From positions 1 through 43,794 of the forward strand of contig JAPPKS010000019.1 in the NCBI GenBank assembly GCA_028819845.1: 43,794 bases of DNA, in the 5' to 3' direction. Below, piece after piece: positions 16,340-19,648 of the stretch. Each line of letters begins with the position of its first letter. Positions within the stretch are counted from its first letter, which is position 1. The notes beneath the pieces were generated by a model. The model made no database searches, had not been told where the DNA came from, and was given only the letters and a program-made list of their open reading frames with translations. Position numbers and translations under genes: made by a program. The DNA is from Candidatus Poribacteria bacterium. Lineage in GTDB: Bacteria; Poribacteria; WGA-4E; PCPOR2b.

Positions 16340-17875
16340 TCAGCCTTCATAGCGAAGGTGGACAATTTTGTTGATTGCGTCAATGTAGGCTTTTGCGCTT
16401 GCTACGATGATGTCAATACTGGCGCCGTGACCAACAATCATTCGCCCGTTGTCCTGTACTTTAATCGTGACTTCACCGATGGCATCCTTGCCCTCGGTTA
16501 CGGAGCGGATGCGGTAGTCCGTGAGGGTGAGCGGCATCTTGACAATGCGGTCGATTGCTTTGTAGGCGGCGTCCACGGGGCCATTACCGGTGGAGGCTTC
16601 CTCAAAAACCCCTTCTTCCGTTCGGACGGCTACAGTGGTCGTCGGGGAAATTTTCGTGCCACTGACAATCTGAATGTGCTCAATCTGGTAGGCTTCTGGG
16701 ATGGAGCGAACCTCGTCTCTCATGATAGCCTCAAGGTCCGCATCGTGGACGGCTTTCTTCTTATCCGCAACGACGAGAAAGCGTTCGTAGATTTTGTCGA
16801 GCTGATCGGGTGTAGTCTCATAGCCGAGTTCATGGAGGCGGTGCCTGAGTGCGTTGCGTCCGGATCTCGGGCTAAGGATAATTTGGCTCTCCTGCCAGCC
16901 GACGTCTGACGGATCAATAATCTCGAAGGTATCTCGCTGCTTAATTACGCCATCCTGATGAATGCCAGAACTGTGCGCGAAGGCATTGGCGCCAACGATG
17001 GCTTTGTTCGGTTGAACAGGTATTCCCATAGTCCGGCTAACACGGCGGCTGATTGGAACGATCTCTTTCGTATTGATGTTGGTGTGGTAGGCTCCAAAAT
17101 AGTCTCTGCGTGTGCGGATAGCCATCACAATCTCCTCCAGCGATGTGTTGCCGGCGCGTTCTCCAAGTCCGTTCATTGTGCATTCCACCTGCCTTGCCCC
17201 TCTTTCAATGGCTTCTAGACTATTGGCAACGGCGAGCCCGAGGTCGTTATGGCAGTGTACGCTGATGATTGCTTCATCAATGTTCGGCACATTCGCTTTG
17301 ATGTTCGAGATTAGCTGTCCAAATTCAGCGGGGACGGTCCAACCCACCGTTTCGGGGATGTTCACGATTGTTGCGCCTGCCGCAATTGTCGCCTCGACCA
17401 CTTCATACAGATAGCTTAACTCTGTACGTCCGGCGTCCATCGGCGAAAATTCCACGACTGCATCGGCGTGTCCATCAGATAGACTCTTCGCGTAGATGAC
17501 GGCATCAACTGCCATTTTTAGCGTTTCTTCGGGTGATGTCCGCGTAATACGTTCTCTATGAATTGGCGAGGTGCCAACAAAGGTGTGAATGCGGGGTTTC
17601 GATGCGTCCTTAATTGCACCCCAGGCAGCGGTGATATCCTTTTCTATCACTCGTGAAAGCCCACAAATTTCGGGCCCTTCAACCTCGTTGGCAATTCGCT
17701 TGACCGCATCAAAATCGCCGGGTGATGAGACAGGGAAACCCGCTTCAATGATATCGACATTCAGTTTCGCTAGGTGTTTGGCAATTTCTAACTTTTCCTC
17801 AAAATTCAGTGCGGCGCCGGGGGTCTGCTCGGCATCTCGAAGGGTTGTATCAAAAATGTAAACTTTTTCAGACAC
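16340..17875 (-). CDS. leuA: 2-isopropylmalate synthase
   Basis: The first committed enzyme of leucine synthesis, joining acetyl-CoA and 2-oxoisovalerate. The TIM-barrel start VYIFDTTLRDAEQTPG (usually DGEQ, here Ala), the metal-binding HCHNDLGLAVANS and the NAFAHSSGIHQDG loop are intact, and the C-terminal LeuA regulatory domain (from about IEHIQIVSGTKISP) is present, so leucine feedback is expected. The GTG at 17875 gives 511 residues, the normal length, with GGAG nine bases upstream. A second in-frame start, GTG at 17986, has an exceptionally strong AGGAGGTGA site five bases upstream and would add 37 residues, so two isoforms are possible. It follows the DAHP synthase gene by about 200 bases and may share its transcript. 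Confidence 0.93.
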   Translation of the reverse strand: MSEKVYIFDTTLRDAEQTPGAALNFEEKLEIAKHLAKLNVDIIEAGFPVSSPGDFDAVKRIANEVEGPEICGLSRVIEKDITAAWGAIKDASKPRIHTFVGTSPIHRERITRTSPEETLKMAVDAVIYAKSLSDGHADAVVEFSPMDAGRTELSYLYEVVEATIAAGATIVNIPETVGWTVPAEFGQLISNIKANVPNIDEAIISVHCHNDLGLAVANSLEAIERGARQVECTMNGLGERAGNTSLEEIVMAIRTRRDYFGAYHTNINTKEIVPISRRVSRTMGIPVQPNKAIVGANAFAHSSGIHQDGVIKQRDTFEIIDPSDVGWQESQIILSPRSGRNALRHRLHELGYETTPDQLDKIYERFLVVADKKKAVHDADLEAIMRDEVRSIPEAYQIEHIQIVSGTKISPTTTVAVRTEEGVFEEASTGNGPVDAAYKAIDRIVKMPLTLTDYRIRSVTEGKDAIGEVTIKVQDNGRMIVGHGASIDIIVASAKAYIDAINKIVHLRYEG

Positions 17876-17983
17876 TGTGTGACTCTCCTGTTTTGTGATT
17901 GTTCTATGTTCAGTACGATGTTCTAACGATATGAGATTGTCTTCAGCGTTACGTAAATCCGGTTCTTCGGAAGTTTTCAACCC

Positions 17984-18082: not shown

Positions 18083-19156
18083 TTAAACTCTAGCCAAGTT
18101 TTTATGTGCTTCCTTAAGCAAAGATGCGGTTGTTTGGAAATCGATGCAACTGTCAGTGACAGAAACGCCGTACTCAAGCTCGGATGGATCAAAACCAGTT
18201 AAGTCCGAAGGTATTTTCTGACTTCCGGCATTGATGTTTGATTCTAGCATGAATCCCACAATCCCATCATTGCCGTCGCGAACCTGCCTCAACACTTCCT
18301 GAAAAACAATTGGCTGATTTCTGTAGTCTTTCTCTGAATTTCCGTGGCTGCAATCAATAACGACGTTTGGCGGTAGATTTGCCTGTGTCAGCATCTGTTG
18401 AACATGCTCAATGCTTTCCGCATCATAATTTGAGTTGTTACTGCCGCCTCTCATCACGATATGTGTATATCGATTACCCTTTGTCCGTACAATAGATGCA
18501 TCGCCGATTTCATCGATTCCCAAGAAAGTGTGTTCATGTTTCGTGGATAGAATCGCATTAACAGCAACAGCGATGTCGCCGTGAGTGCTATTTTTGAAAC
18601 CAACCGGCATTGAAAGGCCAGAAGCAAGTTGCCTATGTTGCGGCGACTCGGTTGTTCGCGCACCAATCGCCGCCCACGAAATTAAATCCGAGTTGTATTG
18701 AGGTGTGAACGCCTCCAAATATTCAGTGGCACATGGCAAACCAATTTCAAGAACATCCATTAGAATCCTTCTTGAGAGATGCAACCCGTCTTTTATATGT
18801 CCGCCTTCGTTTAGATAAGGGTCGTAGATTAAGCCTTTCCAGCCTAAACTCGTACGAGGTTTTTCAAAATAGCATCTCATGGTAATCACTAAATGGTCTG
18901 AAACAGCATCGGCAATTTCTTTTAAGCCTGCGGCATAGTCACGTGCAGCCTTAGGGTCATGGATCGAACACGGCCCCACAATGACGACCTTTCTAGGGTC
19001 AGCCCTGTCCAAGATATTTTTTATGCTTTTTCTTCCATATTCCATTGCCGAGGTCATTGTGTCTGTTCTTGGAAGATCAGTTAGCAATTGCTTCGGACTC
19101 ATTAATGCATCATAGCTCTTGATGTTTTGGTCAATAGCACCATTCTTTTCTACCAC
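18083..19156 (-). CDS. aroG: 3-deoxy-7-phosphoheptulonate (DAHP) synthase, class I AroFGH type
   Basis: The entry enzyme of the shikimate pathway, condensing phosphoenolpyruvate with erythrose-4-phosphate. Family motifs are intact: VVIVGPCSIHDP, MRCYFEKPRTSLGWKGLIYD, GARTTESPQHRQ, GIDEIGDASIVRTKGN and DCSHGNSEKD. The GTG at 19156 is chosen because CGGAGGAAG lies directly upstream and it gives 357 residues, matching the roughly 350 of E. coli AroF/G/H. The longer open frame would run through the terminator hairpin at 19219-19253. The symbol is a class label; which amino acid inhibits it (Phe, Tyr or Trp) cannot be read. Expression is probably controlled by the attenuator immediately upstream. 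Confidence 0.93.
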   Translation of the reverse strand: MVEKNGAIDQNIKSYDALMSPKQLLTDLPRTDTMTSAMEYGRKSIKNILDRADPRKVVIVGPCSIHDPKAARDYAAGLKEIADAVSDHLVITMRCYFEKPRTSLGWKGLIYDPYLNEGGHIKDGLHLSRRILMDVLEIGLPCATEYLEAFTPQYNSDLISWAAIGARTTESPQHRQLASGLSMPVGFKNSTHGDIAVAVNAILSTKHEHTFLGIDEIGDASIVRTKGNRYTHIVMRGGSNNSNYDAESIEHVQQMLTQANLPPNVVIDCSHGNSEKDYRNQPIVFQEVLRQVRDGNDGIVGFMLESNINAGSQKIPSDLTGFDPSELEYGVSVTDSCIDFQTTASLLKEAHKNLARV

Positions 19157-19210
19157 CGCTGCTTCCTCCGAGTTTCCATGTAGTAGTCTTCGATACCGAT
19201 ATGTCTTGAA

Positions 19211-19253
19211 AATAAAAACGCCCACCACCGAGTTTTTGTTTCGATGATGGGCG
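19211..19253 (-). terminator. Intrinsic terminator/attenuator in the DAHP synthase leader
   Basis: On the minus strand CGCCCAUCAUCGA and UCGGUGGUGGGCG pair over 13 bp (two G-U) around a nine- to ten-base loop, followed at once by UUUUUAUUUU. It lies about 60 bases before the DAHP synthase start, so read-through is required to express the gene. The 5' arm can pair equally well with CGGUGGUGGGC inside the upstream leader ORF (19307-19317), the hallmark of an attenuator. Confidence 0.85.
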
Positions 19254-19280
19254 ATTATCATTCATTGAATGCCGGATTTT

Positions 19281-19433
19281 CTATGGCTCCTCCATTATCT
19301 CAGCCAGCCCACCACCGCAGCGTAAGTACAACAAAAACGTGAAAAGAACGAAGGAATAAAGATAAACCGTGTACGAGGCACCACTACTGTTGATTTGGTT
19401 TTCCAGGGCGGTAAGCGGTTGCATATTGAGCAT
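19281..19433 (-). CDS. Tyr/Phe-rich 50-codon leader peptide or small membrane protein
   Basis: This ORF is short but has a good ribosome site (AGGAAGACAAGAAC before ATG). The product begins MLNMQPLTALENQINSSGAS and then has a hydrophobic run YTVYLYSFVLFTFLLYL with four Tyr and three Phe in 16 residues, then RCGGGLAEIMEEP and a stop. The RCGGG codons contain the RNA arm that competes with the downstream terminator. Placed between a promoter and the DAHP synthase gene, it fits a leader peptide whose translation senses charged tRNA-Tyr or tRNA-Phe. Eight Leu codons make leucine a second possibility, given leuA downstream. Alternatively it is a true single-span membrane protein. The function is inferred, not shown. 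Confidence 0.55.
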   Translation of the reverse strand: MLNMQPLTALENQINSSGASYTVYLYSFVLFTFLLYLRCGGGLAEIMEEP

Positions 19434-19576
19434 GTTCTTGTCTTCCTATGTTCACGCCGGGTTAGTCTTCAGACCGTGCTACCCCAACATTTTGCGCTAT
19501 CAATTGGTTCAATAAAATTGTAAACGCCGCAATGGGCGAACTCTTTCCACGAACCTAATACTCTTGAGTAAACCAT

Positions 19577-19606
19577 ATCTTAACAAACGTATTCGCAAGA
19601 TGTCAA
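19577..19606 (-). promoter_or_regulatory. Sigma-70-type promoter for the leader and DAHP synthase
   Basis: On the minus strand TTGACA (19601-19606), an 18-base spacer, then TAAGAT (19577-19582). The -35 is perfect and the -10 matches at four of six bases. Transcription would start near 19570, giving a leader of about 415 bases before the DAHP synthase start. It is back-to-back with the serA promoter; the two -35 boxes are 12 bases apart. Confidence 0.65.
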
Positions 19607-19618
19607 GGGAATTTTCGG

Positions 19619-19648
19619 TTGACAACCTTTTTTTCTAGGTGTTATAGT
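19619..19648 (+). promoter_or_regulatory. Sigma-70-type promoter for serA
   Basis: TTGACA (19619-19624), an 18-base spacer, and TATAGT (19643-19648), about 38 bases before the serA start codon. GGAGG at 19673-19677 is the ribosome site. Confidence 0.75.

Follow-up and report, generated by a model that had tools for sequence, protein, structure and literature searches.

The window analysed here is a 43,794-nucleotide stretch of DNA (GenBank assembly GCA_028819845.1, contig JAPPKS010000019.1) from a genome whose closest named relatives are Candidatus Poribacteria MAGs. A putative regulatory leader occupies the gap between a DAHP synthase gene, with which it shares the minus strand, and serA on the plus strand (19687). 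The leader is composed of a promoter, a 50-codon open reading frame (ORF), four arms capable of alternative pairing, and an intrinsic terminator (Table 1). Inspection of the sequence placed the promoter, ORF, and arms at the coordinates given in a preliminary description of this DNA, which had read the leader as an attenuator responding to tyrosine and phenylalanine. The DAHP synthase gene is followed by leuA, with which it is possibly co-transcribed.

Table 1. Features of the leader and of the downstream genes, in window coordinates.
Feature	Sequence	Position	Strand	Basis or remark
-35 hexamer	TTGACA	19601..19606	-	sequence of leader promoter
-10 hexamer	TAAGAT	19577..19582	-	sequence; spacer to -35 of 18
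Leader peptide ORF	MLNMQPLTALENQINSSGASYTVYLYSFVLFTFLLYLRCGGGLAEIMEEP	19281..19433	-	ATG, 50 codons and TAG; counterparts in five relatives
Arm 1, anti-antiterminator 5' strand	GCTTACCGCC	19407..19416	-	10 bp with arm 2, -15.9 kcal/mol
Regulatory Tyr/Phe codons	YTVYLYSFVLFTFLLY	19326..19373	-	residues 21-36: 4 Tyr and 3 Phe
Arm 2, antiterminator 5' strand	CGGTGGTGGGC	19307..19317	-	within leader ORF
Arm 3, strand common to antiterminator and terminator	GCCCATCATCG	19242..19252	-	
Arm 4, terminator 3' strand	CGGTGGTGGGC	19220..19230	-	
Intrinsic terminator U-tract	TTTTTATTTT	19209..19218	-	sequence
DAHP synthase, type I-alpha (aroFGH family)		18083..19156	-	GTG start; TIGR00034 E 6.5e-132
2-isopropylmalate synthase leuA		16340..17950 (start provisional)	-	TIGR00973 E 1.4e-210

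Leader ORF, arms, and terminator

Promoters formed like that of the leader are also present at loci L004, L085, L087, L095, and L097. The ribosome site of the leader ORF, AGGA about 11 nt upstream, is moderate rather than strong as had been claimed. The density of Tyr and Phe codons that drew attention to the ORF, seven in 16, is as described. A 35-aa ORF at 19469-19576 is an unlikely leader because its start sits at the -10 box.

Arm 2, inside the ORF, and arm 4 are one and the same 11-mer, and either can pair with arm 3. The antiterminator of arms 2 and 3 is an 11-bp helix of -18.3 kcal/mol, and the terminator is a 13-bp stem of -21.3 kcal/mol followed by the U-tract, both in agreement with the pairings first proposed. 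That arm 3 finds an 11-bp partner within the ORF exceeds chance expectation: matches as long arose in 75 of 5000 synonymous recodings of the window ORF and in 11 of 5000 codon-order shuffles. The pairing of arm 1 with arm 2, originally given as 9 bp with wobbles, also exists; its core CTTACCGCC (19415-19407) is extended by a neighboring G to 10 bp, and it is favored only before arm 3 has been transcribed. The terminator loop has 9 nt, and the automated terminator search missed the hairpin because it was limited to loops of 8.

The U-tract is about 62 nt from the likely GTG start of the DAHP synthase gene at 19156, close to the 60 bases first estimated. An in-frame ATG at 19261, which opens a 392-aa ORF, was considered as the start of this gene; that ORF reads through the terminator, and the start in relatives favors the GTG. 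The leader promoter has an oppositely oriented neighbor on the plus strand (19619-19648): the promoter-like site TTGACA-18-TATAGT is strong and could serve the divergent phosphoglycerate dehydrogenase gene.

Orthologous leaders and paralogous cassettes

Conservation in relatives had been set beforehand as a test of the attenuator reading. Type I-alpha DAHP synthase loci of six other genomes of family f1 were compared, and five of them retain a Tyr/Phe-rich leader ORF (TTLYFFYLYLFLLYLRCDGGRV) together with the terminator, and the five share a conserved leader run, e.g. MKSVYLQPYIANQTTLYFFYLYLFLLYLRCDGGRVDPASKM. At the sixth locus, in genome G003, the leader is absent from the type I-alpha gene and present before a type I-beta DAHP synthase gene just upstream. 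The duplicated arm is kept less completely: arm 2 is found in four of the five leader-bearing relatives and has been lost through a deletion in G007. It is otherwise preserved in related and paralogous leaders. In two relatives (L003 and L085), an ORF of 93-94 residues separates the leader from the promoter region. A decayed cassette copy (L099 1500-1640, G001:C58:108714) lies some 5 kb from the DAHP synthase gene, on its upstream side, ahead of a gene resembling that for ureidoglycolate lyase.

Paralogous loci were first found by searching with the leader of a relative. A covariance model spanning arm 2 to the terminator (R1, 15 sequences) then replaced a stricter three-arm DNA pattern that was too narrow for aro leaders, and it matches in 68 of the 85 genomes of the phylum at E<=0.01. 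Since the model contains arm 2, the arm 2:3 matches of the paralogous loci are partly selected. The 93 loci that were read precede genes of DAHP synthases (37), IleRS (37), LeuRS (6), TyrRS (4), citramalate synthase (3), and six others, namely ThrC (2), DUF5916 proteins (2), HisRS, and one unrelated gene. LeuRS at L161 and TyrRS at L163 were assigned from reading the protein. The leader thus appears, from these sequences, to belong to a phylum-wide set of attenuators, which the preliminary description had overlooked.

The paralogous loci supply the decisive evidence for attenuation, as the codons of the leader run change with the gene that follows. Tyr and Phe codons precede DAHP synthases of types I-alpha and I-beta (e.g. 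YLYTFLLYLRGDGG for type I-beta) and TyrRS (YLYYYTSVLFVPALYLHGDGGL), Ile codons precede IleRS (SIGIISIIIIIPSCDGGL) and the citramalate synthase CimA (AVIAIIIIIRIAAPCVVGGG), and Leu codons precede LeuRS (LSALALRLRLLGLLRLKSVVGSG). When each genus contributed a single value per class (28 in all), the observed match of codons to gene class was reached in none of 100,000 label permutations (genus-level p about 1e-5). The clearest break of the rule is formed by two IleRS leaders of family f5 (L136 and L139), which are Tyr/Phe-rich, not Ile-rich. A cognate run is not clear at the covariance-model matches before ThrC (L191, L207), HisRS (L165), and the DUF5916 genes, and we do not claim the HisRS and ThrC loci as members of the cassette family. 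Two ileS-like cassettes (L199 in G063 and L209 in G050) precede genes of DUF5916/CBM9 proteins, which are not known to act in amino-acid metabolism.

Close relatives conserve the C-terminal half of the hydrophobic leader peptide, as would be expected if the ORF were a genuine gene for a small, membrane-like protein with its own terminator, followed by a gene with its own promoter. However, the peptide turns Ile- or Leu-rich at other loci, suiting the downstream gene, while arms 2-4 remain; it is not a conserved protein found away from aro genes, an outcome that had been named as contrary to the attenuator reading. In most cassettes the ORF spans arm 2 and has its stop about 24 nt beyond it, and in the ileS leaders of family f2 the conserved arm 2 is noncoding because the stop codon precedes it. 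We consider a small-protein gene very improbable.

The spacing of arm 2 to arm 3 is mostly 49-57 nt across the cassettes, and the tyrS and DAHP synthase cassettes of f2 genomes lie at most 1.6 kb apart. The tyrS and type I-beta DAHP synthase leaders of G003 (MQTFQLPTITYLYYYTSVLFVPALYLHGDGGLAKLVK and MQKFQLQTIAYLYFYTLGLFMRLLYLHNDGGLAKIAR) share 24 of 37 residues, counted by eye, and look like products of a duplication. On balance, we favor a history in which one ancestral Poribacteria cassette was copied among genes and re-specified by swaps of leader codons. It would have given rise to a coordinated regulon sensing charged tRNA, which would comprise DAHP synthases of both type I subclasses, TyrRS, IleRS, LeuRS, and citramalate synthase, alongside the T-boxes of acetolactate synthase.

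Near-identical hairpins before several genes, some of them without a leader (ileS of the same genome, L002; leuS, L102, L113), could instead reflect an ordinary or mobile terminator copied to several intergenic sites, with the match to the leader ORF as a by-product; mobile terminators are known (PMC2965389). The leaderless ileS copy is, however, explained by an element inserted between its leader and its terminator, and the position, spacing, covariation, and cognate codons of the cassettes require a functional account. There is little to recommend a mobile terminator as the explanation.

The inserted element (L222 759-8227, G000:C21) is 7.45 kb long and is flanked on either side by a copy of GCCCATYATCGAAAC, an arrangement with a chance expectation of 0. 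The insertion point falls within the terminator of the ileS attenuator. The genes of the element specify a tyrosine recombinase, a primase-like protein, and two phage capsid proteins of the HK97 type. Judging from these genes, it is probably a phage satellite or prophage remnant that uses the attenuator hairpin as its attachment site.

Covariation, folding, and proposed mechanism

In 21 ileS leaders, pairing of arms 2 and 3 holds in 95.7% of cells and includes 13 both-side changes; arms 3 and 4 contain six covarying pairs. In percentage paired, in both-side changes, and in score, none of 500 shuffles came up to the values observed. In 15 mixed leaders, the 3:4 helix has two covarying pairs, and the 2:3 helix is uninformative because arm 2 is almost invariant. 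The type I-beta DAHP synthase leaders of family f3 have different arm sequences (GCGGCGGTAGGTGGTGATA with TATCACTACCCAGCGTCG) and keep both 2:3 and 3:4 pairing. Covariation of 2:3 within this family is no higher than in column shuffles, since variation inside the family is too small.

Folding of the leader RNA, suggested as a check, is uninformative for the molecule as a whole (minimum free energy z -0.29), as expected of a switch. When the window transcript ends at arm 2, arms 1 and 2 pair with a probability of 0.98, above shuffles. In most other leaders, arm 2 likewise has a partner early in the ORF, within its initial ~50 nt, and this pairing is above shuffles in about half. The cimA leaders, whose arm 2 is different, have a correspondingly different arm 1. 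The terminator is always the favored structure at equilibrium, and antitermination must therefore be kinetic. Kinetic antitermination is part of the classical attenuation model.

The effect of a stalled ribosome was modeled in ten leaders by a footprint whose downstream edge was set 16 nt from the first base in the P site. For the window leader, the probability of 2:3 pairing is near 1 with the ribosome at any codon of the run and falls to 0 two to three codons past the last Tyr. The pattern is alike in aro and tyrS leaders (last Tyr) and ileS leaders (last Ile), and is weakest at L095. In this model, the last cognate codon is at about the last position that would leave arm 2 free.

The leader combines a cognate codon run, an intrinsic terminator, an antiterminator whose counterparts covary in the ileS cassettes, and suitable stall geometry. 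From its parts, their conservation, the covariation of the arms, and the codon-to-gene match across the paralogous cassettes, all evident at the sequence level, we estimate a probability of about 0.9 that it is a ribosome-mediated transcription attenuator of the trp/phe type. The comparative data thus support the reading as a Tyr/Phe attenuator. We infer use of the promoter, translation of the leader, stalling, kinetic folding, and readthrough, as follows. RNA polymerase would start at ~19570 and transcribe a leader in whose ORF the Tyr/Phe run comes after arm 1 and before arm 2. A shortage of charged tRNA-Tyr or tRNA-Phe would stall the ribosome in the run, beyond arm 1 and short of arm 2. 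Arm 2 could then pair with arm 3 as the latter emerges, before arm 4, and transcription would proceed into the DAHP synthase gene. When charged tRNAs are plentiful, the ribosome would cross arm 2, leaving arm 3 to pair with arm 4, and transcription would terminate. Termination would also be expected from an untranslated leader, in which arm 1 can occupy arm 2.

Relation to known systems

Isoleucine genes elsewhere are common T-box targets, and T-boxes exist in the phylum: family RF00230 has matches in 79 of the 85 genomes, and the four loci read (L212-L215) precede acetolactate synthase. The leader could accordingly be imagined as a T-box riboswitch that senses uncharged tRNA directly, with an incidental short ORF. 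However, RF00230, like every other Rfam family, has no match at gathering score in the window leader or at E 1 in seven cassette loci, while T-boxes elsewhere in the genome were detected; moreover, it is a codon run, not one specifier triplet, that varies with the gene. We regard a T-box as the least probable reading of the leader, with hardly any weight. Because T-boxes and cassettes coexist in the phylum, both sensing systems would be in use.

The E. coli attenuators of pheL-pheA, trpL-trpEDCBA, and pheST rely on cognate codons in a leader peptide, on alternative 1:2, 2:3, and 3:4 pairing, and on an intrinsic terminator. The Poribacteria leaders share this cognate-codon, alternative-arm, and terminator design; however, the arms of the E. 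coli systems are gene-specific, whereas arms 2-4 in Poribacteria are common to genes for different amino acids. To judge from the sequences compared, one arm set serving genes for different amino acids is unusual. The E. coli attenuators are also cited in PMC11802643.

The nearest precedent is the aroR-aroF attenuator of Corynebacterium glutamicum (Neshat et al. 2014, as cited in PMC11802643), which the preliminary description had overlooked. As summarized in that article, the aroR leader contains a Phe-Tyr-Phe sequence before a DAHP synthase gene, and ribosome stalling raises transcription. By this description the two systems are alike in placing a Phe/Tyr leader peptide before a DAHP synthase gene, and neither the mechanism nor the target in Poribacteria is therefore new. 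They differ in that C. glutamicum is an actinobacterium whose leader has a short FYF run and, according to the same summary, responds to Phe, not Tyr (PMC11802643). The Poribacteria run is long and ends in Tyr, and the same cassette also serves ileS, tyrS, leuS, and cimA.

Leader-peptide attenuation of aminoacyl-tRNA synthetase genes has likewise been predicted for leuS and trpS in Streptomyces (Seliverstov et al. 2005, PMC1262725), though in another phylum and for one or two genes, and Streptomyces ileS uses T-boxes. Bacillus hisS paralogues have histidine leader peptides, similarly a cognate codon run in a leader ORF before an aminoacyl-tRNA synthetase gene (Naville and Gautheret 2010, PMC2965389). 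As described in 2010, leader-peptide systems were known from no groups other than Proteobacteria, Actinobacteria, and, by the result of that paper itself, Firmicutes (PMC2965389).

The Rfam leader families for Phe, Trp, Leu, His, and Thr have no match in the window or at seven cassette loci, and the literature searched holds nothing relevant on Poribacteria with attenuation or riboswitches, in keeping with the earlier statement that no case had been described for this lineage. A phylum-wide, codon-reprogrammed cassette family with such a range of targets appears to be undescribed, as there was no Rfam match and no paper was found.

Tyr/Phe-rich leaders with terminators also precede DAHP synthase genes in Latescibacterota (L023), Chloroflexi (L006 and L008), and Desulfobacteraceae (L034). 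Runs in these leaders of other phyla include RYFYFYFYYAF, GYYRPFYFYAYR, and DRLFYFWFYYFYAP, and the end of the Desulfobacteraceae ORF, GCCCGTGGT, pairs with the terminator arm. This control point may therefore be common and overlooked.

In Poribacteria, leader-peptide attenuation would be phylum-wide in an uncultured lineage and naturally re-specified, with the same RNA arms read through Ile, Leu, or Tyr/Phe codons. As a natural experiment, the cassettes would bear on the origin and duplication of attenuators, on changes in their amino-acid specificity, and on how they divide work with T-boxes.
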